Shown in pieces: positions 32,697-60,280 of a DNA stretch of 64,000 bases. Position numbers and translations under genes: made by a program. The stretch is from Bacteroidia bacterium. Its GTDB lineage: Bacteria; Bacteroidota; Bacteroidia; J057. How positions within the stretch are numbered: position 1 is the stretch's first letter; each line of letters opens with the position of its first letter. The DNA lies in assembly GCA_033391075.1 (NCBI GenBank), contig JAWPMV010000001.1, forward strand, positions 4,836,001 to 4,900,000, read 5' to 3'. Under the pieces are notes generated by a model. The model did no database searches. It was given only the letters and a program-made list of their open reading frames with translations, and was not told the origin of the DNA.

Positions 32697-34067
32697 GTGG
32701 ATCCTGATCCTGAGCTTAGTCAAACCTCTGTCCTCCTTCTGGAGCAATTGGTCTGGTGGCCGGATTTGACCTTACAGTTTTTTCTGTTCGTTATTTTGAT
32801 CTTTATTTCCTTTTTGGCTTCGGGTTCAGAAATCGCATTTTTCTCCCTGACAAAAAAGGATTTGGATAAACTGGAGGAGGAAGATACGCCCTCCGGCAGA
32901 CGAATTTTACGTTTACTTTCCCATCCGGATAAGATCAGTGCCTCAAAAAAACTGCTGGCAACGATCCTTATTACCAATAATTTCATGAATGTCGCTGCCA
33001 TTTTGGTAGCCTCTCAAATACTCAAAGAGTTTCAGCAGGTATATCTGTGGAATGATACCGTCAATTTCTTACTCAATGTAGTAGTGATTACCAGTGTCCT
33101 TCTATTTTTTGGCGAAATCATTCCCAAAGTTTATGCTTCTAAGTACAGCAAAACCCTGGTCCATTTACTTGCCGGACCATTTGAAGGGCTCAAATACTTC
33201 CTCTCCCCTTTCTCCAGACTCCTTATAAAAGGGACACGATTCATTGATAACCGAATCAAACTAAAAGAAACACATACCTCTTTGGAAGACCTCAAACATG
33301 CCATCGAATTGACGACAGATGATGTGGCAGATAAAGAGGAAAAAGGGATTCTGAAAAGTATTGTCAATTTCAGCAACATCCCGGTCAAAAGTATCATGCG
33401 AGCAAGGGTAGATGTCATTGCTTTTGAGCTCAATGAACCTCTGGATGAAATCCTGAATTTAATCAATAAGAACACCTACTCTCGGCTTCCGGTCTATGAG
33501 GAAAATCTGGATAATATAAAAGGAATCCTTCACATCAAGGATCTCTTACCCTACATAAAACAAGACAGCAAAAAACTGGTCCTCAAGGATATTTTACGAG
33601 AAGTCTATTATGTTCCGGAAAGCAAAAAAATTGATGATTTGCTGGAAGATTTCAAGACCAATTATCTCCATATGGCAGTAATTGTTGATGAGTTTGGAGG
33701 AACGGCAGGGATTGTTACCCTGGAGGATGTGATAGAAGAGATTTTTGGAGAAATCAATGACGAATTTGACAGCATGGATTGGGTGTACACCAAAAAATCG
33801 GAAGACACCTATATCTTCGAAGGCCGCATTTCTCTGATAGACGTTAGAAAGATTCTCAACCTTGACGATCAGATTTTTGAAGACGCCCGGGGGGATAGTG
33901 ATAGCCTCGGTGGTCTTATATTGGAGCTGCATGGTAAGATTCCTGAAAAAGGCGATTTGATCTCTTACCAAAATTTCGACTTTATTATCGAAGCTATTAG
34001 CAGGAATCGGATTTCTCAGATCAAAATGGTCATCAAAGAGGAAGAAGAACTGGAAGAAAAATCATGA
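32697..34067 (+). CDS. gldE: Gliding motility-associated protein GldE (DUF21/CBS/CorC family)
   Basis: 456 residues from a GTG at 32697. Three to four N-terminal membrane helices form a DUF21/CNNM domain (about 20-200, ASGSEIAFFSLTKKDLDKL). A CBS pair follows (about 205-340, PVKSIMRARVDVIAF and YSRLPVYEENLDNIKGILHIKDLL; VIVDEFGGTAGIVTLEDVIEEIFGEI) and then a CorC/HlyC C-terminal domain (RISLIDVRKILNL onward). The family is known from metal-efflux proteins. In gliding Bacteroidota the gene directly before gldD is called gldE and supports motility and T9SS function. The stop overlaps the gldD start as ATGA. Confidence 0.92.
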   Translation: MDPDPELSQTSVLLLEQLVWWPDLTLQFFLFVILIFISFLASGSEIAFFSLTKKDLDKLEEEDTPSGRRILRLLSHPDKISASKKLLATILITNNFMNVAAILVASQILKEFQQVYLWNDTVNFLLNVVVITSVLLFFGEIIPKVYASKYSKTLVHLLAGPFEGLKYFLSPFSRLLIKGTRFIDNRIKLKETHTSLEDLKHAIELTTDDVADKEEKGILKSIVNFSNIPVKSIMRARVDVIAFELNEPLDEILNLINKNTYSRLPVYEENLDNIKGILHIKDLLPYIKQDSKKLVLKDILREVYYVPESKKIDDLLEDFKTNYLHMAVIVDEFGGTAGIVTLEDVIEEIFGEINDEFDSMDWVYTKKSEDTYIFEGRISLIDVRKILNLDDQIFEDARGDSDSLGGLILELHGKIPEKGDLISYQNFDFIIEAISRNRISQIKMVIKEEEELEEKS

Positions 34068-34660
34068 AAAAAACCACCCATCTGATACCAGGCTTTATTT
34101 TCGTCTTGCTTGGACTTTCCATTTTTATCACTTCTTGCGAAGAACCGATCAATCAACCTCGTAAATATGGTTTTCCTCGTATGGAACTCCCCGAAGGATT
34201 TGGCTATAAGACTTTCAGGAATGAAAGTTGTCCCTTTACCTTCGAATATCCGGACTATGGAGAGGTAAGCAGAGATATGGGAGATTCCTGTTGGGTAGAT
34301 ATCAACTTCCCATCCTATGATCTTACCTGGCATTTCACCTATCGCAATACAGAAGAAAGCAACAAAAGTCGCGGGCAACATTTTGAAGAGTACCGAAGAC
34401 TGATATATAAACATTCCTCCAAAGCCTCCCATATAGAAGCCAATCCCATGGAAACTCCTTCAGGAAAAGGGACCTTATTTGAGATATATGGCGAAGTGGG
34501 TACCCCTCAACAAATCTTTCTATACGATCCGGCAGAAACAGACATCATGATGATGTCCTTCTATTACCAAACCGCCACAGAAAATGATTCCCTGGCCCCT
34601 CTCACCATTTATATGAAAGAAGAGGTGCAAAAGATGTTGAATACGTTTAGATGGAAATAG
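34064..34660 (+). CDS. gldD: Gliding motility lipoprotein GldD
   Basis: 198 residues. The signal peptide ends in a lipobox (FITSC). The mature part carries the GldD pattern: PRKYGFPRMELPEGFGYKTF, CPFTFEYPDYGEV, CWVDINFP, and a C-terminal MMSFYYQTATENDSLAP segment. GldD is essential for gliding and for T9SS-dependent secretion in Flavobacterium. Here it is translationally coupled to gldE at the end of mutY-ssb-gldE-gldD, matching the classical order. Confidence 0.93.
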   Translation: MKKTTHLIPGFIFVLLGLSIFITSCEEPINQPRKYGFPRMELPEGFGYKTFRNESCPFTFEYPDYGEVSRDMGDSCWVDINFPSYDLTWHFTYRNTEESNKSRGQHFEEYRRLIYKHSSKASHIEANPMETPSGKGTLFEIYGEVGTPQQIFLYDPAETDIMMMSFYYQTATENDSLAPLTIYMKEEVQKMLNTFRWK

Positions 34661-35338: not shown

Positions 35339-38300
35339 ATGAATAGACGAATTCTACCAACTGTATTTCTACTGAACCTATTGCTCTTAACCAACCTCTC
35401 ATGGGGCCAATCCTGTGATGGAGGAACGGTGACTACAGCTTCAGGAAACACAAGCGCCTACACCTGTCCGGGTGATGGCAATGCCGATGCCATTGATTTC
35501 GCAGTAAGCGGAAACTCTGCCGACAATTTTATTTATGTAGTAACAGATGCCAGTGGCATCATTTTAGGTTTGCCACCTGGCAATACCGTAAACTTCGAAG
35601 GAGCAGGCGTAGGAAACTGCCTTGTTTGGGGGCTTTCCTATACCGGAAACCTCACCGCTCAAATGGGAGACAATGCTTTGACTACTGCCTTGAGTGATGA
35701 TTGCTTTGATCTTTCAGACAATTCGGTAAGTGTGCAAAGAGACAATCCGGATGGAGGTCATGTAACTACCGTTGATGGTGCAACAACTGCTTATACTTGC
35801 CCTGGAGATGGAAATGCGGATGAAATTTCTTTCGCAGTTACAGGAAACTCCAATTCTAACTTCCAGTGGGTAGTTACCGATGATCAGGGTACGATCCTTG
35901 GACTGCCTCCTGGCAATACTGTAAACTTCGAAGGAGCAGGTGTAGGAAACTGTCTCGTTTGGGGACTGGCTTATACCGGAAACCTTACCGCTCAAATGGG
36001 AGACAATGCCTTGCAGATTGCCCTGAGTGACGATTGCTTTGATCTCTCGGATGTGCCTGTTAGCGTACAAAGAGATAATCCAGATGGAGGAGTAGTAACC
36101 ACTGTTGATGGTGCGACTACTGCCTACACTTGCCCTGGAGATGGAAATGCGGATGAAATTTCTTTCGCAGTTAGCGGAAATTCTAATTCTAACTTCCAGT
36201 GGGTAGTTACTGATGATCAAGGTACGATCCTTGGACTGCCTCCTGGCAATACTGTAAACTTCGAAGGAGCAGGTGTAGGAAACTGTCTCGTTTGGGGACT
36301 GGCTTATACCGGAAACCTTACCGCTCAAATGGGAGACAATGCCTTGCAGATTGCCCTGAGTGACGATTGCTTTGATCTCTCGGATGTGCCTGTTAGCGTA
36401 CAAAGAGATAATCCGGATGGAGGAGTAGTAACCACTGTTGATGGTGCAACAACTGCTTATACTTGCCCTGGAGATGGAAATGCGGATGAGATTTCTTTCG
36501 CAGTTAGCGGAAATTCTAATTCTAACTTCCAGTGGGTAGTTACTGATGATCAAGGTACGATCCTTGGACTGCCTCCTGGCAATACTGTAAACTTCGAAGG
36601 AGCAGGTGTAGGGAATTGCCTCGTTTGGGGACTTTCTTATACCGGAAACCTTACCGCTCAAATGGGAGACAATGCTTTACAAATTGCCTTGAGTGATGAT
36701 TGCTTTGATCTCTCGGATGTGCCTGTTAGCGTACAAAGAGATAATCCCGATGGAGGAGTAGTAACCACTGTTGATGGTGCGACTACTGCCTACACTTGCC
36801 CTGGAGATGGAAATGCGGATGAAATTTCTTTCGCAGTTACAGGAAATTCAAATTCTAACTTCCAGTGGGTAGTTACCGATGATCAGGGAACTATCCTTGG
36901 ACTGCCTCCTGGCAATACTGTAAACTTCGAAGGAGCAGGCGTAGGAAACTGCCTCGTTTGGGGACTGGCTTATACTGGAAACCTCACGGCACAAATGGGA
37001 GACAATGCTTTACAAATTGCGTTGAGTGATGATTGCTTTGATCTTTCTGATACACCTGTAAGTGTGCAAAGAGACAATCCGGATGGAGGCCATGTAGCAA
37101 CTGTAGATGGAGATTCAAGAGTTTATACTTGCCCAGGAGATGGAATTGCAGATGAAATTTCTTTCGCAGTAAGTGGACAATCCAATTCCAACTTCCAATG
37201 GGTAGTTACTGATGATCAGGGAACCATCCTCGGTTTGCCTCCCGGCAACACTGTGAATTTTGAAGGAGCTGGCGTAGGAAATTGCCTCGTTTGGGGACTT
37301 TCTTATACCGGAAACCTTACTGCTCAAATGGGAGACAATGCATTACAAATTGCGTTGAGCGATGATTGCTTCGATCTTTCTGACAACTATGTAGAAGTGG
37401 TGAGAAGTTCAAATTGTGTGAATGGCTTTACCCTTATCAATGCTCGCACTGATTCAGACATCCAACCGATAAATGACGGAGATGTGATTGTATTGAATCA
37501 ACTCCCAACGAGTCGTATCAATATCAGAGCTGACGTATTTGGAAACGGAATCGGTAGCGTAGTATTCAAATTAAATGGATACAGAGTACGTACCGAAAAC
37601 TATGCTCCTTATGCATTAGCAGGAGACAGAAATGGAGATTACTTCCACATTCCAGTCGTTCGTCCTGGTACCTATACGCTCATGGCGACTCCTTACAGCC
37701 AAAGAAATGGCAGAGGAATGATGGGGTCTCCCTATATGGTTACCTTCACCATCGTGAGATCCATGAATAGAGTTACCGGCTTCACCCTGATTGATGCAGA
37801 TACGGATCAGGATATAGGGCCATTGAATGATGGAGATGTGGTAGATCCTGCCGCTCTGGGAGTAAGAAGACTGAGCGTGAGAGCCAATACAAATCCTGGC
37901 GTAGTCGGTAGTCTGGTGTTTAGCATAAATGGAAGACGTCGTACAGAAAATTTTGCTCCTTATGCTTTAGGCGGGGACAGAAATGGAAATTACTATCCGG
38001 TAAACTTCCGTCCCGGCAGTATTACCCTTTCAGCTACACCCTATGACAAGAGAAATGCAATGGGAGATGTCGGTCCTACCGAAACGATCACTTTTACCTA
38101 TGTGCGCCCAAGTGGGTACAAAGAATTTGAGCAGGAAGTAGCGCTGAATGTGTATCCAAATCCTGGCCAGGGAAAAATCAATCTGGAGATCACAGAAGTA
38201 GAAGCAGGAAATGTACAAATCGAAGTATTGAGCCTTCAGGGAGCCCGTGTATTTAGCGAAAGTCTGGAAAGCAATGGTGGTCCATTCCTTCATAAACTCA

Positions 38301-38386
38301 ATCTGGAGCAACTACCGGCAGGTACATATCTTCTCAATTTGAAAGCTGGCGGACAAGTTTTCAGAGAAAAGATCATTAAACAGTAG
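35339..38386 (+). CDS. Large secreted repeat protein, T9SS type A cargo
   Basis: 1015 residues with a Sec signal (MNRRILPTVF, cleavage after SWGQ). Residues 27-692 are six tandem 111-residue units, nearly identical at both protein and DNA level. Each has a conserved Cys triplet (YTCPGDG, GNCLVWGL, DDCFDL) and the block ILGLPPGNTVNF. Two further related domains of about 115 residues follow (GFTLI-A-TD-DI-P-NDGD, with RTENYAPYALAGDRNG and RTENFAPYALGGDRNG), resembling beta-sandwich modules of Bacteroidota surface proteins. The last 80 residues are a type A T9SS sorting domain (LNVYPNPGQGKINLEI to GTYLLNLKAGGQVFREKI). It is likely surface-attached or released and adhesive; no catalytic site is seen. 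Confidence 0.9.
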   Translation: MNRRILPTVFLLNLLLLTNLSWGQSCDGGTVTTASGNTSAYTCPGDGNADAIDFAVSGNSADNFIYVVTDASGIILGLPPGNTVNFEGAGVGNCLVWGLSYTGNLTAQMGDNALTTALSDDCFDLSDNSVSVQRDNPDGGHVTTVDGATTAYTCPGDGNADEISFAVTGNSNSNFQWVVTDDQGTILGLPPGNTVNFEGAGVGNCLVWGLAYTGNLTAQMGDNALQIALSDDCFDLSDVPVSVQRDNPDGGVVTTVDGATTAYTCPGDGNADEISFAVSGNSNSNFQWVVTDDQGTILGLPPGNTVNFEGAGVGNCLVWGLAYTGNLTAQMGDNALQIALSDDCFDLSDVPVSVQRDNPDGGVVTTVDGATTAYTCPGDGNADEISFAVSGNSNSNFQWVVTDDQGTILGLPPGNTVNFEGAGVGNCLVWGLSYTGNLTAQMGDNALQIALSDDCFDLSDVPVSVQRDNPDGGVVTTVDGATTAYTCPGDGNADEISFAVTGNSNSNFQWVVTDDQGTILGLPPGNTVNFEGAGVGNCLVWGLAYTGNLTAQMGDNALQIALSDDCFDLSDTPVSVQRDNPDGGHVATVDGDSRVYTCPGDGIADEISFAVSGQSNSNFQWVVTDDQGTILGLPPGNTVNFEGAGVGNCLVWGLSYTGNLTAQMGDNALQIALSDDCFDLSDNYVEVVRSSNCVNGFTLINARTDSDIQPINDGDVIVLNQLPTSRINIRADVFGNGIGSVVFKLNGYRVRTENYAPYALAGDRNGDYFHIPVVRPGTYTLMATPYSQRNGRGMMGSPYMVTFTIVRSMNRVTGFTLIDADTDQDIGPLNDGDVVDPAALGVRRLSVRANTNPGVVGSLVFSINGRRRTENFAPYALGGDRNGNYYPVNFRPGSITLSATPYDKRNAMGDVGPTETITFTYVRPSGYKEFEQEVALNVYPNPGQGKINLEITEVEAGNVQIEVLSLQGARVFSESLESNGGPFLHKLNLEQLPAGTYLLNLKAGGQVFREKIIKQ
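35417..37414 (+). repeat. Six tandem 333-bp coding repeats
   Basis: Six units of 111 codons, each beginning GATGGAGG, run from 35417 with an exact 333-bp period; the sixth starts at 37082. Units 2-5 are the most alike, unit 1 the most diverged, and unit 6 is intermediate. There are no insertions or deletions between units. Confidence 0.92.
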
Positions 38387-38713
38387 TTCTTTTATGAAAC
38401 AACACTCAGTTTCATAATCTTTTATAATTCAGATGAACCCTCTGGCCCTGGTCAGAGGGTTTGCTTTTGGGAGAACAAAAGATCAAGTGCAAGTCTCAAG
38501 TCAAATTTACACTTGAACTTGAACTTGCACTTGATACTTGATACTTGATACTTGATACTTGAACGTTATATTCAATTCTTTCTACAAAAATCTGGAGCTT
38601 CTAATTGCTTCTAACTACTATTTTCTTTTCCACAAACTGTGGATATGATCTTCCCTTTTGCCCCCAAATCTTTTGTAATTTTAGGCTTGAGGTAATAGAA
38701 TTAGAAGTAGACC
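38387..38713. other. Intergenic region before dnaE with inverted and tandem repeats
   Basis: 327 bp without a gene. After the terminator at 38436, ATCAAGTGCAAGT (38482-38494) pairs exactly with ACTTGCACTTGAT (38523-38535). The right arm runs into four tandem copies of ACTTGAT/TACTTGA (about 38529-38562). The final part is AT-rich and should hold the dnaE promoter, though I see no clear TAnnTTTG box. Confidence 0.6.
38436..38468 (+). terminator. Rho-independent terminator
   Basis: AACCCTCTG (38436-38444) pairs with CAGAGGGTT (38453-38461) around GCCCTGGT, followed by TGCTTTT. It ends the message of the secreted repeat protein. Confidence 0.75.
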
Positions 38714-54742: not shown

Positions 54743-57700
54743 ATGAGCGGAAGAAAGCGAAAATCAAAAAAAAGAAGAAAAACTCGTCATAAAGGGAAAA
54801 AAGGGGTCCAACATCCCGAGATTCTGGAAAGCCAAGATTCGAACAAAGTCAACTTTGCCAAACCGAATGGCGATAGAAATACCATAATTCAAGATGTTGA
54901 AGATTCAGAAATTCACATTTCTGAAAATACCTACAATTACAATGCTCCTATTTCTTTTCGAGCAGATGCGATTCAGGCAGAAATTCTTCAGTATCAACAA
55001 AAAATCGAGATAAAATACGATACTGGGGCGGTAGTTCAAGTACCTAACATTAGCGAATTTTTTGCTGCTAGATTTACCAAGGACAAATCCAAAAGAAGGT
55101 ACCAGGATTATCTGGATCATAGAATTCTAAAATATGTATCTCGGGTAGAATTTAAGAAAAGAGATATGACTCCTGAATCTTTTATAGATGAGGAAAATAT
55201 TTACTCAGGATTAGAAAAAAAGTTAGGCAGTATCATAATAGGTAAAGGAGGAACCGGAAAAACAAGGACGATGTATGAAGTAGGTTTGTATGCCGAACGA
55301 AAAGGCTGGACTACTTTAGCTATTAAGTCAGACTTTAAACATATAGAAGCTTTATTGGCTTCTTTAAGTCCAGACCCCCAAAAGAAGTATCTGCTGGTGT
55401 TTGATTATATCGAAGAAAGTGAATGCTTTGAGAAAGCAGTGAAACATATAATCGAAGAAAAAAGAGACGACTCTATAAAAATTTTAGCGAACTGCAGAAA
55501 ATCTTTTGAAACTACTCTAAGATCAATTTTCTACTCTGGTCGACAATTATTTGATTTCTTCGACTTTACGGATCCCCAAAACAAAGAAAGCGAATATTAT
55601 TACCATCGCTATGTCGCAAGCCGGATTACTTACCCGGTAATAAATAAACTTAACCTAAATCATACAAACGAGAAGAAAAAGCTTTTTTATAAACTTAGAC
55701 CCTCCTTCGCGGTATTTTTGAGATTCTTATCTGATATTGGGAGTGACGAAATAAATCTTACTGAATTTAATAGTTTTGAAGACTGGCTGATTAAAAGATT
55801 CAGATTAACTGCAAAAAACCAAGATTATTCTGTAGATAGTTTGACCCGTCAGTTATCTTTGCTTCCGGTCTTTGAGGAGAACATTGATAGTTTTTTAGAC
55901 CGATTTTCAGTAAGCGAAAAATTTTTGACTGATGGTTGGTTACAAGAAATCAAATTATATGGAAAAGACCGTCTCGATGCCGTTCATGATACGGTTAAAG
56001 ATGTCTTACTATTACATTTTCTAAAATCAAATACCAATCAGGAAAGAGCACTTGTTAGAAAAATAAGTCATCATCTAGATTTCTCTCTAGAAAATGGCGG
56101 AATTAAAAACTGGTTCAGATCATATGAAAGAATTTTAGATGACCCTATCTGGGAAAACTATTCCAATTTCTTTCACTCTTTTTTTAGCAAGTATTTAAAA
56201 AAATCTGGTTCTGACTTATTAAATCCTTATTACCTTATAAATTCAGCCTTATTAAACGAACAAGAGAAATTCGAACTAATAACAAATAATGAAAAATTCT
56301 TTTCTGACTATGTTCTTACTGAGTCGTTCGGGATGCAACTTCAGTTTGCATTAAATTATTATAGCAAATCGACAAATAAAGAAAGGACTCCTACAAATTT
56401 GCAGGATATAGCGCAAAATTGGGTACAGCAAAACACTCACATTCTTAAATCAGGTATACTGGCTGACAAAATTATTTCAACCTATTTAAACAAGTTTGGG
56501 ATTGATGAATTTATTCTTCCAATATTTCAAGATTTTATAACTAATGGGGACCATGAATTTGGAAACTTTACCATAAACTCGTGGTTAAGACATGGAGGAG
56601 AGCCCGATTCAATAAAAACATTTCTATTTAAGTACTTGGAATTACATGACAAAGAAGAAGGTGCCAATTATGTGATAGGTTCGTGGATTAAATATGGCGG
56701 AGATTCTTTAAAAATTAAGCGCCATATTGAGAATCATTTCTTAGAGAATATCCAAAAACCAAACAGCAAATTCATTTTATTTGCATGGCTAGAAAAAAAA
56801 TATGCCCCTGAATTCATCAACACTTTTTTAGGGCAGTATTTTGAATCAAATAAAGCTGAGTCCGGGATCATTCAGCTCTTACAAAAATCAGAACATCCAC
56901 AAAAAAACGACTGGATCTCAAATGTAAAACAAGAGCTAGGGCACAGCCTTGAAAAGGTAGACCAAGTAGATTCATTTTATATCCAAAGTTACCTTGGTCA
57001 AGGAGGGGATATAGCCAAAATTCGAGAGTTCGTTATTGCTTACCTCGAGAAAAACGCTCAGGAAAAAGAAGCTCAATTTGTTTTTAAAGCGTGGCTGGAT
57101 AATGGGGGTGATACACAAAGCATTCGAGCATTCCTCATTGCTTACCTCGAGAAAAACGCTCAGGAAAAAGAAGCTCAATTTGTTTTTAAAGCGTGGCTGG
57201 ATAATGGGGGTGATACACAAAGCATTCGAGCATTCCTCATCGCTTACCTCGAGAAAAACGCTCAGGAAAAAGAAGCTCAATTTGCTATCAATGCATGGTT
57301 GAATAATGGAGGGGATACGGCCGGAATTCAAGAGTTCGTCATTACTTACCTCGAGAAAAACGCTCAGGAAAAAGAAGCTCAATTTGTTTTTAAAGCGTGG
57401 CTGGATAATGGGGGTGATACACAAAGCATTCGAGCATTCCTCATTGCTTACCTCGAGAAAAACGCTCAGGAAAAAGAAGCTCCCTTTGTTATCCAACCTT
57501 GGTTAGATAATGGGGGTGATACACAAAGCATTCGAGCATTCCTCATTGCTTACCTCGAGAAAAACGCTCAGGAAAAAGAAGCTCAATTTGTTTTTAAAGC
57601 GTGGCTGGATAATGGGGGTGATACACAAAGCATTCGAGCATTTCTCATTGCTTACCTCGAGAAAAACGCTCAGGAAAAAGAAGCTCAATTTGTTTTTAAA

Positions 57701-60280
57701 GCGTGGCTGGATAATGGGGGTAATACACAAAGCATTCGAGCATTCCTCATTGCTTACCTCGAGAAAAACGCTCAGGAAAAAGAAGCTCAATTTGTTTTTA
57801 AAGCGTGGCTGGATAATGGGGGTAATACACAAAGCATTCGAGCATTCCTCATTGCTTACCTCGAGAAATACGCTCAGGAAAAAGAAGCTCCCTTTGTTAT
57901 ACAACCTTGGTTGAATAATGGAGGAGATATTGAAAGCATTCGAGCATTCCTCATTGCTTACCTCGAGAAAAACGCTCAGGAAAAAGAAGCTCAATTTGTT
58001 TTTAAAGCGTGGCTGGATAATGGGGGTGATACACAAAGCATTCGAGCATTCCTCATTGCTTACCTCAAGAAAAACGCTCAGGAAAAAGAAGCTCAATTTG
58101 CTATCAATGCATGGTTGAATAATGGAGGGGATACGGCCGGAATTCAAGAGTTCCTCATTGCTTACCTCGAGAAAAACGCTCAGGAAAAAGAAGCTCAATT
58201 TGTTTTTAAAGCGTGGCTGGATAATGAGGGTGATACACAAAGCATTCGAGCATTTCTTATTTCTTACCTCGAGAAAAACGCTCAGGAAAAAGAAGCTCAA
58301 TTTGTTTTTAAAGCGTGGCTGGATAATGGGGGTAATACACAAAGCATTCGAGCATTCCTCATTGCTTACCTCGAGAAATACGCTCAGGAAAAAGAAGCTC
58401 CCTTTGTTATACAACCTTGGTTGAATAATGGAGGAGATATTGAAAGCATTCGAGCATTCCTCATTGCTTACCTCGAGAAATACGCTCAGGAAAAAGAAGC
58501 TCGATTTGTTATACAACCTTGGTTGAATAATGGAGGAGATATTGAAAGCATTCGAGCATTCCTCATTGCTTACCTCGAGAAAAACGCTCAGGAAAAAGAA
58601 GCTCGATTTGTTTTTAAAGCGTGGCTGGATAATGGGGGTGATACACAAAGCATTCGAGCATTCCTCATTGCTTACCTCGAGAAAAACGCTCAGGAAAAAG
58701 AAGCTCCCTTTGTTATACAACCTTGGTTAGATAATGGGGGTGATACACAAAGCATTCGAGCATTCCTCATTGCTTACCTCGAGAAAAACGCTCAGGAAAA
58801 AGAAGCTCAATTTGTTTTTAAAGCGTGGCTGGATAATGGGGGTGATACACAAAGCATTCGAGCATTCCTCATTGCTTACCTCGAGAAAAACGCTCAGGAA
58901 AAAGAAGCTCAATTTGTTTTTAAAGCGTGGCTGGATAATGGGGGTAATACACAAAGCATTCGAGCATTCCTCATTGCTTACCTCGAGAAAAACGCTCAGG
59001 AAAAAGAAGCTCAATTTGTTTTTAAAGCGTGGCTGGATAATGGGGGTAATACACAAAGCATTCGAGCATTCCTCATTGCTTACCTCGAGAAAAACGCTCA
59101 GGAAAAAGAAGCTCAATTTGTTTTTAAAGCGTGGCTGGATAATGGGGGTAATACACAAAGCATTCGAGCATTCCTCATTGCTTACCTCGAGAAAAACGCT
59201 CAGGAAAAAGAAGCTCAATTTGCTATCAATGCATGGTTGAATAATGGAGGGGATACGGCCGGAATTCAAGAGTTCGTCATTACTTACCTCGAGAAAAACG
59301 CTCAGGAAAAAGAAGCTCCCTTTGTTATACAACCTTGGTTGAATAATGGGGGTGATACACAAAGCATTCGAGCATTCCTCATTGCTTACCTCGAGAAAAA
59401 CGCTCAGGAAAAAGAAGCTCAATTTGTTTTTAAAGCGTGGCTGGATAATGGGGGTGATACACAAAGCATTCGAGCATTCCTCATTGCTTACCTCGAGAAA
59501 AACGCTCAGGAAAAAGAAGCTCAATTTGCTATCAATGCATGGTTGAATAATGGAGGGGATACGGCCGGAATTCAAGAGTTCGTCATTACTTACCTCGAGA
59601 AAAACGCTCAGGAAAAAGAAGCTCAATTTGCTATCAATGCATGGTTGAATAATGGAGGGGATACGGCCGGAATTCAAGAGTTCGTCATTACTTACCTCGA
59701 GAAAAACGCTCAGGAAAAAGAAGCTCAATTTGTTTTTAAAGCGTGGCTGGATAATGGGGGTAATATACAAAGCATTCGAGCATTCCTCATTGCTTACCTC
59801 GAGAAAAACGCTCAGGAAAAAGAAGCTCAATTTGTTTTTAAAGCGTGGCTGGATAATGGGGGTAATATACAAAGCATTCGAGCATTCCTCATTGCTTACC
59901 TCGAGAAAAACGCTCAGGAAAAAGAAGCTCCCTTTGTTATACAACCTTGGTTAGATAATGGGGGTGATACACAAAGCATTCGAGCATTCCTCATTGCTTA
60001 CCTCGAGAAAAACGCTCAGGAAAAAGAAGCTCAATTCGCTATTAATGCATGGCTGAATCAGAGTGGGGATAAAGAATGTATCCAGGAGTTTCTCATTCAA
60101 TACCTCGAGAATTACGCTCAGGAAAAAGAAGCACAATTTGTTTTTAAGGCATGGTTAGGAGCAGGTGGTTCATCCGAAATTATTTATCCATTTATTAAGA
60201 TTCATTTAGAAATGAATTCCCTTGACTATATAGATTCTAAATACAGAGATTGGATTCTGGCAATTTATGATAGTCAATAG
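54743..60280 (+). CDS. Giant P-loop NTPase with 36 helical 34-residue repeats (STAND-like, unrecognised family)
   Basis: 1845 residues, ATG at 54743 after an AAGGA site. In order: a very basic start (2-20); a short NTIIQDVEDSEIHIS motif (46-60), similar in style to adaptor strands of bacterial conflict NTPases; a P-loop NTPase with Walker A GKGGTGKT (167-174), Walker B KYLLVFDYIEES (215-226) and a sensor-like ILANCRKSF (247-255); a helical middle (about 300-590); five degenerate 34-residue repeats (591-760); 31 near-identical 34-residue repeats (761-1814); and a 31-residue cap. No signal peptide or membrane helix is seen, so it is probably cytoplasmic. Each repeat predicts two helices, giving a long solenoid. 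It is visibly more A+T-rich than its neighbours. The STAND/NLR-like sensing role is inference; no enzymatic effector domain is recognised. Existence of the gene is certain; its function is not. Confidence 0.9.
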   Translation: MSGRKRKSKKRRKTRHKGKKGVQHPEILESQDSNKVNFAKPNGDRNTIIQDVEDSEIHISENTYNYNAPISFRADAIQAEILQYQQKIEIKYDTGAVVQVPNISEFFAARFTKDKSKRRYQDYLDHRILKYVSRVEFKKRDMTPESFIDEENIYSGLEKKLGSIIIGKGGTGKTRTMYEVGLYAERKGWTTLAIKSDFKHIEALLASLSPDPQKKYLLVFDYIEESECFEKAVKHIIEEKRDDSIKILANCRKSFETTLRSIFYSGRQLFDFFDFTDPQNKESEYYYHRYVASRITYPVINKLNLNHTNEKKKLFYKLRPSFAVFLRFLSDIGSDEINLTEFNSFEDWLIKRFRLTAKNQDYSVDSLTRQLSLLPVFEENIDSFLDRFSVSEKFLTDGWLQEIKLYGKDRLDAVHDTVKDVLLLHFLKSNTNQERALVRKISHHLDFSLENGGIKNWFRSYERILDDPIWENYSNFFHSFFSKYLKKSGSDLLNPYYLINSALLNEQEKFELITNNEKFFSDYVLTESFGMQLQFALNYYSKSTNKERTPTNLQDIAQNWVQQNTHILKSGILADKIISTYLNKFGIDEFILPIFQDFITNGDHEFGNFTINSWLRHGGEPDSIKTFLFKYLELHDKEEGANYVIGSWIKYGGDSLKIKRHIENHFLENIQKPNSKFILFAWLEKKYAPEFINTFLGQYFESNKAESGIIQLLQKSEHPQKNDWISNVKQELGHSLEKVDQVDSFYIQSYLGQGGDIAKIREFVIAYLEKNAQEKEAQFVFKAWLDNGGDTQSIRAFLIAYLEKNAQEKEAQFVFKAWLDNGGDTQSIRAFLIAYLEKNAQEKEAQFAINAWLNNGGDTAGIQEFVITYLEKNAQEKEAQFVFKAWLDNGGDTQSIRAFLIAYLEKNAQEKEAPFVIQPWLDNGGDTQSIRAFLIAYLEKNAQEKEAQFVFKAWLDNGGDTQSIRAFLIAYLEKNAQEKEAQFVFKAWLDNGGNTQSIRAFLIAYLEKNAQEKEAQFVFKAWLDNGGNTQSIRAFLIAYLEKYAQEKEAPFVIQPWLNNGGDIESIRAFLIAYLEKNAQEKEAQFVFKAWLDNGGDTQSIRAFLIAYLKKNAQEKEAQFAINAWLNNGGDTAGIQEFLIAYLEKNAQEKEAQFVFKAWLDNEGDTQSIRAFLISYLEKNAQEKEAQFVFKAWLDNGGNTQSIRAFLIAYLEKYAQEKEAPFVIQPWLNNGGDIESIRAFLIAYLEKYAQEKEARFVIQPWLNNGGDIESIRAFLIAYLEKNAQEKEARFVFKAWLDNGGDTQSIRAFLIAYLEKNAQEKEAPFVIQPWLDNGGDTQSIRAFLIAYLEKNAQEKEAQFVFKAWLDNGGDTQSIRAFLIAYLEKNAQEKEAQFVFKAWLDNGGNTQSIRAFLIAYLEKNAQEKEAQFVFKAWLDNGGNTQSIRAFLIAYLEKNAQEKEAQFVFKAWLDNGGNTQSIRAFLIAYLEKNAQEKEAQFAINAWLNNGGDTAGIQEFVITYLEKNAQEKEAPFVIQPWLNNGGDTQSIRAFLIAYLEKNAQEKEAQFVFKAWLDNGGDTQSIRAFLIAYLEKNAQEKEAQFAINAWLNNGGDTAGIQEFVITYLEKNAQEKEAQFAINAWLNNGGDTAGIQEFVITYLEKNAQEKEAQFVFKAWLDNGGNIQSIRAFLIAYLEKNAQEKEAQFVFKAWLDNGGNIQSIRAFLIAYLEKNAQEKEAPFVIQPWLDNGGDTQSIRAFLIAYLEKNAQEKEAQFAINAWLNQSGDKECIQEFLIQYLENYAQEKEAQFVFKAWLGAGGSSEIIYPFIKIHLEMNSLDYIDSKYRDWILAIYDSQ
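56513..57022 (+). repeat. Five degenerate 34-codon repeats
   Basis: Residues 591-760 divide into five in-phase 34-residue units, directly before the homogenised array. They keep the pattern (F-I/L-x-x-Y/F-L near the start, S/A-W-I/L near position 24, GG-D near 28-30) but share little DNA identity. Units 2 and 3 begin KTFLFKYLEL and KRHIENHFLE. Confidence 0.75.
57023..60184 (+). repeat. 31 tandem 102-bp coding repeats, nearly identical
   Basis: The array has an exact 102-bp period with no indels; the first unit starts at 57023 and the last at 60083. The consensus unit begins RAFLIAYLEKNAQEKEA. Positions 18-23 fall into three cassettes: QFVFKA (18 units), QFAINA (6 units) and PFVIQP (7 units, one with R first, as also in one QFVFKA unit). 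Other variable positions are 1, 2, 4, 6, 11, 26 and 30-33. Multi-unit blocks recur (units 8-9 and 13-14 match), which indicates unequal recombination. Confidence 0.95.

Follow-up and report, generated by a model that had tools for sequence, protein, structure and literature searches.

Tandem Ig-like units in a predicted T9SS cargo of a Bacteroidia bacterium, with putative disulfide staples at the unit junctions

The repeat gene and its domain layout

The 64,000-nucleotide stretch analysed here (the window; positions 4,836,001 to 4,900,000 of contig JAWPMV010000001.1, assembly GCA_033391075.1, from a Bacteroidia bacterium) carries a gene for a 1015-residue protein, most of which (residues 26-691) consists of six tandem units of exactly 111 residues each. 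The array and its location were first proposed in a first-pass annotation made from the sequence alone, and both the list of open reading frames (ORFs) and Tandem Repeats Finder (period 333, 5.4 copies, 90% matches, score 2702) confirm the 333-bp array in the ORF at 35339-38386. The protein is likely, judging from the distribution of cysteines among its relatives, to be a stalk of immunoglobulin (Ig)-like domains that is exported by the type IX secretion system (T9SS) and stapled by disulfides at the junctions between units. Its features, in which Cys1, Cys2 and Cys3 denote the three cysteines of each unit, are as follows.

35339..38386, + strand: repeat-protein gene, 1015 residues, predicted T9SS cargo (ORF list, profile matches)
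35339..35413, + strand: signal-peptide-like N-terminal stretch, residues 1-25 (sequence itself)
35414..35416, + strand: codon of C26, the N-terminal cap cysteine (C0); predicted partner C122, Cys3 of unit 1
35414..35746, + strand: unit 1, divergent; codons of Cys1 at 35465, Cys2 at 35618, Cys3 at 35702
35747..36079, + strand: unit 2; Cys1 at 35798, Cys2 at 35951, Cys3 at 36035
36080..36412, + strand: unit 3; Cys1 at 36131, Cys2 at 36284, Cys3 at 36368
36413..36745, + strand: unit 4; Cys1 at 36464, Cys2 at 36617, Cys3 at 36701
36746..37078, + strand: unit 5; Cys1 at 36797, Cys2 at 36950, Cys3 at 37034
37079..37411, + strand: unit 6, divergent; Cys1 at 37130, Cys2 at 37283, Cys3 at 37367
37415..37417, + strand: codon of C693, the C-terminal cap cysteine (Cend); predicted partner C598, Cys1 of unit 6
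37421..38107, + strand: two domains of about 110 residues (residues 695-923), mutually related and weakly Big_7-like (profile and sequence comparison)
38150..38383, + strand: T9SS type A C-terminal sorting domain, residues 938-1015 (PF18962, TIGR04183)

The N-terminus is hydrophobic as seen by eye, and the sorting domain exceeds the curated cut-offs of both TIGR04183 (43.8 bits, cut-off 23) and PF18962 (45.3 bits, cut-off 27), in agreement with the T9SS cargo first proposed; the protein is thus predicted to be a type A cargo. The domain pair that precedes the sorting domain scores 11.9 bits against Big_7 (PF17957), under the cut-off of 24.1, and its single-sequence structure model is poor (predicted local distance difference test, pLDDT, 61.6). 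The same pair follows a partial unit in two other genomes (loci L068 in G007 and L077 in G001), where the open frame starts within a unit, as at a contig end; L068 reaches 29.5 bits against Big_7 without any single stretch passing. An antisense ORF of 315 residues (35714-36661) overlies the repeats and is taken as their shadow.

Similarity and homogenisation of the units

Among units 2-5 identity is 89-95% at the DNA level and 97-99% at the protein level, whereas unit 1 (70-75% and 76-83% to the others) and unit 6 (70-81% and 76-87%) stand apart; the description of six near-identical modules is therefore right for four of them and fails for the first and the last, while the accompanying picture of an array alike in its middle and divergent at its ends is borne out. 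A match "almost base for base" is found in stretches, the longest being 192 identical bases between units 2 and 3 and 122 between units 3 and 4, but not overall, as the synonymous divergence (dS) among units 2-5 is 0.18-0.55. The ratio of non-synonymous to synonymous divergence (dN/dS) is 0.02-0.14 across all unit pairs, and strong purifying selection thus also keeps the unit proteins alike. The variable sites among units 2-5 form a mosaic that fits exchange between units: at unit bases 38-74, unit 2 agrees with 4 and unit 3 with 5; at bases 260-296, units 2 and 3 agree, and units 4 and 5 differ at one base; at bases 297-333, units 2, 3 and 4 are the same.

The array of the window leads the 46 arrays that contain at least three complete units in mean within-array identity (0.90), and for each of its six units the nearest relative is another member of that array; the nine units of a paralogous array in the same genome likewise all find theirs within the paralogue. 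Together with the mosaic sites, these values uphold the recombination within the array that had been supposed. Home-array nearest relatives are not the rule of the family, however, as they are found for none or few of the units in at least 22 of the listed arrays; arrays can, it appears from these comparisons, stay stable for long or be homogenised recently.

A unit absent from Pfam with a predicted Ig-like fold

The module was not recognised at first, and it belongs to no curated family: unit 3 alone matches no Pfam family at E<=1, and when 58 units were scanned against Pfam no family matched more than two of them. The whole protein of the window does pass GldD_lipo (32 bits, cut-off 27), with no stretch significant alone; since a single unit has no such match, this whole-protein match is read as chance scores that were probably summed over the repeats. 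It had looked like a link to the real gldD, the next gene upstream of the repeat gene. A sequence search of the PDB with the unit profile was weak, the best E of 0.0043 coming without a significant stretch and a mistletoe lectin following at about E 0.01.

An AlphaFold2 model of two units, built from an alignment of 91 sequences, is all beta (pLDDT 96.0, predicted template modelling score 0.82); the unit is predicted, with high model confidence, to be an Ig-like beta-sandwich of two sheets and about seven strands. A single unit thus matches no characterised family, but the fold predicted for it is an ordinary one. With the two-unit model as query, Foldseek returns only 3pdd (E 6.7e-6) and 7biz_B (E 5.2e-5) at E<=0.001; the former is the cellulosomal pair of Fn3-like modules of Clostridium thermocellum CbhA, with which no kinship is claimed. 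VIA-align reaches Z 7.6 at best (3shs, root-mean-square deviation 4.3 over 173 residues) and Z>=8 with none of the 992 chains; its rows are mostly Ig and Fn3 domains, among which those of SiiE (Z 6.7-7.2) are tied with many others and no SprB- or RTX-specific entry is otherwise deciding. These fold neighbours fit a common Ig-like sandwich and show no closer kinship.

In the model, Cys1 (residue 18) lies directly after strand 14-17 and Cys3 (residue 97) directly before strand 98-100, while Cys2 (residue 69) lies inside strand 67-76. From the strand order of Ig folds, Cys1 would sit at the end of the unit that faces the next unit and Cys3 at the end that faces the previous one. The linkers between units are mostly 3-6 residues long (375 pairs).

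Cysteine accounting at the unit junctions

Three cysteines per module are indeed present in the units of the window, at positions 18, 69 and 97, but they are not equivalent: in relatives Cys2 is optional, and Cys1 and Cys3 vary together with cysteines of the adjacent unit rather than with each other. The discovery set for this comparison comprises 68 ORFs with 550 units; a count over 487 complete units finds Cys1 in 90%, Cys2 in 53% and Cys3 in 99%, and Cys2 is seen in 303 of the 550. Last units often lack Cys1 and an extra cysteine tends to precede first units, a pattern that pointed to a pairing of Cys1 in one unit with Cys3 in the unit that follows. At strict alignment columns, 447 of 454 adjacent pairs of units hold both of these cysteines, five hold neither, two hold Cys3 only and none holds Cys1 only. 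Both pairs with Cys3 only belong to L019, where a linker cysteine precedes each following unit. The five pairs with neither come from L021 (one), L055 (two) and the related Aquimarina proteins L058 and L060, and in view of the kinship of the latter two they represent about three lineages. Other pairings were tried and rejected: Cys1 with Cys3 of the same unit is discordant in 58 of 533 cases at the strict columns, Cys3 of unit n with Cys1 of unit n+1 in 40 of 459, and Cys2 in 223 of 457 as partner of Cys3 of the next unit and in 266 of 537 as partner of Cys1 of its own.

If the linker cysteines of a junction are added to its Cys1 (from unit n) and its Cys3 (from unit n+1), the sum is even at 461 of the 463 complete discovery junctions (10 of 473 were dropped because they are cut by an end or by masked bases). 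The junctions that inform on pairing are those that differ from the plain state of both cysteines and no linker cysteine; 17 of the 19 such junctions are even. A further set of 20 regions from 19 further genomes, taken from the profile-search matches in one family and in the phylum and chosen for holding two or more units, gives even counts at 66 of 66 complete junctions (two of 68 being cut) and at all 30 informative ones, of which 25 have two linker cysteines, one has a linker cysteine replacing Cys1 and four have none. Over all junctions, 462 of 473 are even in the discovery set and 66 of 68 in the further set; 5000 shuffles within each set never exceeded 450 and 64, respectively. In a mean-field coupling analysis of 451 adjacent pairs, the column pair 17/96' ranks first of 11,664 inter-unit pairs.

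A few junctions in otherwise plain arrays (L138, L139, L142, L119) have a longer linker in which a pair of cysteines is set two residues apart, as in GDDCNC. Such a linker may release one junction of a stapled chain.

Cap cysteines at the array ends

The 20 cysteines of the window protein are the cap C26, six times three in the units and the cap C693. At 64 of the 67 starts of unit blocks in the discovery set, an upstream cysteine and Cys3 of the first unit are present or absent together (61 with both, three with neither), the exceptions being L058, L060 and L023. The same holds for a downstream cysteine and Cys1 of the last unit at 60 of the 73 block ends (20 with both, 40 with neither); the 13 exceptions include three cut units (L065, L068, L077), five whose cysteine seems to open one more unit (L039, L044, L050, L047, L053) and five real ones. 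In the further set the agreement is 30 of 32 at block starts, with L153 (masked upstream) and L144 as exceptions, and 32 of 32 at block ends. An extra cysteine before unit 1, together with either an extra cysteine after the last unit or the loss of its Cys1, would thus usually close the chain.

These counts bear on a rival explanation, an ordinary Ig-like stalk in which the cysteine pair is bonded inside each unit and the caps play no part. Disulfides usually do form within one domain, and 472 of 537 complete units do hold both Cys1 and Cys3; yet 61 of the 537 hold only one of them, and 40 of the 73 block ends have neither Cys1 nor a downstream cysteine even though other units of the same arrays have both. 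Bonds within units also leave the cysteine before the first unit unexplained, and we consider this explanation quite unlikely.

A proposed disulfide-stapled stalk

In the arrangement that we favour, neighbouring units would be joined by a disulfide wherever they meet: Cys1 of unit n, which immediately follows the second strand, would bond to Cys3 of unit n+1, which lies right ahead of a short strand near the C-terminal end of that unit. For the protein of the window the predicted bonds are C26-C122, C43-C233, C154-C344, C265-C455, C376-C566, C487-C677 and C598-C693; fourteen cysteines would form seven cross-junction bonds and the six Cys2 would remain free. Type A cargo is anchored by its sorting domain. 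Exported by the T9SS, the protein would project from the cell as Ig-like units strung together by short linkers, and the staples would fix the angle between units, turning the array into a stiff spacer that carries the end domains away from the cell. As each staple joins unit n to unit n+1, the length of the array could change without losing staples, and the gain or loss of a whole 333-bp unit by recombination would keep all cysteines paired.

We lean, by a narrower measure than for the protein of the window, towards extending this arrangement to a family of such Ig-like units in Bacteroidota that neither Pfam nor NCBIfam contains and that would form stalks disulfide-stapled unit to unit; the partner of Cys3 would be supplied by the previous unit, the N-terminal stub of the unit itself (C0) or a linker cysteine, junctions could be switched between stiff and free, and changes in length would leave no odd cysteine.

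Several points weigh against stapling. Most junctions are invariant and uninformative; those that inform (19 of 463 and 30 of 66) lie in related proteins, and two of the discovery junctions (L035 junction 2, L047 junction 1) break the even count. The even-number wording was settled after L019 and the further set had been seen, which makes that set a strong check but not a blind one, and some of its genomes are kin of discovery genomes (G545 of G217, G352 of G303). Two linker cysteines occur at six discovery and 25 further junctions, where two separate bonds may replace the staple. The real block-end exceptions (L058, L060, L032, L041, L063) run counter to the accounting, as do L023 and L144 at block starts. 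The column pair 17/96' drops to rank 13 without five ORFs that have internal cysteine losses, and loop-to-loop couplings make up six of the top 50, against three to four for shuffled partners; coupling beyond the cysteines is thus not convincing, and the cysteine accounting is the main evidence. Finally, no VKOR or DsbB match was found in the genome of the window, in which DsbA-like proteins were not searched for, and VKOR is present in only one of 12 array-bearing genomes; stapling raises the question of the oxidant in the 11 where VKOR was not found.

The missing DsbB and VKOR matches would also suit a different role for the junction cysteines, which might bind a metal ion or stay as thiols while something else, such as calcium, stiffens the junction. 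Disulfides, however, require exactly the one-to-one bookkeeping that the cap and linker cysteines show, and two cysteines alone make a poor metal site. An Asp-rich GDG..D motif is conserved after Cys1 (D20 0.83 and D24 0.74 in 487 units), and calcium stiffening of the linkers between beta-sandwiches is established for RTX adhesins in the available part of PMC7493085. On balance a metal-bound or thiol state of the junctions appears improbable.

Relatives, copy number and neighbouring domains

A single unit of the window, used as query, finds 16 places in its own genome: the six of its own array, nine at C1:7390800 and a divergent one at C1:2090763. The nine form the paralogous T9SS array (L062, G000:C1:7388800-7396300), which contains two alternating kinds of unit. 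Units of one kind have identities of 0.84-0.93 to each other (units 1, 6 and 9 excepted), and units of different kinds about 0.6-0.7. The alternation looks as if a two-unit block were the duplicated piece. A contig search yields 45 loci, mostly labelled Saprospiraceae or Saprospirales. The unit occurs in six of 60 genomes in a whole-genome sample of relatives, and a profile search finds it in 15 of 295 genomes of the class and 11 of 395 of the phylum (own genome included in all three counts), as well as in 98 of 114 genomes of one family (f58), many with two matches.

Copy number had been supposed to vary, and ORFs hold from one to 23 units, a count that includes some ORFs cut by contig ends or masked bases; yet Phaeodactylibacter luteus (L032), P. 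xiamenensis (L037) and one metagenome-assembled genome (MAG; L034) all have 18 units in register. The latter two match position by position at 18 of 18 units with a mean identity of 0.96, and P. luteus matches each of them at 17 of 18 with 0.65. A Phaeodactylibacter MAG (L024) has 17 units.

The domains that accompany the units include SprB and CHU_C (L063), lactonase-like propellers (L049, L023), GBD_T9SS_assoc (L113, L114, L120), LTD with PKD (L116, L117) and HYR_4C (L115). Two-unit proteins of family f58 in genomes G081 and G303 have LTD and PKD domains too. In L058, from Aquimarina, two Cys-poor units share a protein with GH9, GH48, CBM_3 and PKD; its relative L060 is an Aquimarina protein that also has two Cys-poor units. 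The carbohydrate-related company in L058, and the galactose-binding-like domains that adjoin the units in L113, L114 and L120, argue for a module that binds polysaccharides or surfaces and is repeated for avidity rather than as a spacer. The alginate-gel-binding, Big_7-like CelAly B1 (PMC13235733, available part) is moreover a fold neighbour of the unit (Z 7.2 over 84 residues). However, a Z below 8 means a common fold only, and many long arrays have nothing between the signal-like N-terminus and the sorting region. Avidity in place of a spacer is thus a possible but doubtful explanation of the arrays; binding by the module as such would be compatible with stapling. The adhesive or matrix function proposed from the outset stays putative for the repeat protein.

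Genomic context

Two genes just upstream of the array, and not part of it, form its context.

32697-34067, + strand: gldE (TIGR03520, 457.6 bits, cut-off 376.05)
34064-34660, + strand: gldD (TIGR03512, 122.8 bits, cut-off 120)

Other neighbouring genes are presumed, from a reading of their sequence alone, to encode MutY and DnaE. No conserved gene order was detected, as the six neighbour proteins of the window matched only loci of their own genome where flanks of at most 6 kb, often 1.5 kb, were searched. Between the repeat gene and the next gene lies an intergenic 7-bp tandem repeat (ACTTGAT, 7.9 copies, window 38511-38562). Further along, an ORF of 1845 residues (window 54743-60280, + strand) contains about 30.7 copies of a 102-bp (34-residue) repeat at 57020-60154 with 88% matches; it has no NCBIfam match at E<=0.001.

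Comparison with known surface repeats and significance

Stalks of tandem Ig-like domains are common, and the stiffening of their junctions sets the reach of a surface protein. The unit shares with the SprB repeats (PF13573) of T9SS gliding adhesins that both are surface repeats of Bacteroidota, and L063 carries a single distant unit in a protein with SprB repeats and CHU_C; it differs from them in that only one of the 58 units has any SprB match (E 0.72). The Big_7 domains, represented by CelAly B1, which binds alginate gel according to the available part of PMC13235733, are Ig-like as well, occur in T9SS-exported proteins and are fold neighbours of the unit, but none of the 58 units matched Big_7 among the matches listed and the protein of the window stays under its cut-off.

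In the extender regions of the RTX adhesins MpIBP, SiiE, MhLap and AhLap, calcium stiffens the junctions of beta-sandwich repeats (PMC7493085, available part). The arrays described here resemble them in their tandem beta-sandwich repeats, their short linkers and, putatively, their stiffening at the junction; they differ in that cysteines would pair across the junction in place of calcium and in that export is by the T9SS. The word "disulfide" does not occur in the available text of PMC7493085. Adhesins of Mobiluncus and other Gram-positive bacteria likewise have long Ig-like arrays with covalent cross-links, including a disulfide (PMC10619420, available part); as described there, each of those cross-links is confined to one domain and the linker between domains is flexible, whereas the bond proposed here would join two domains. 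In a literature search that left most subscription journals outside, none of the papers listed was recognised as describing a disulfide between the domains of an Ig-like array, whether bacterial in general or of T9SS cargo.

A cysteine staple between domains, if true, would be another answer to the problem of stiffening a stalk, beside the calcium of the RTX adhesins (PMC7493085, available part). It would also explain how the length of these arrays can change by unequal exchange without a cysteine being left stranded.

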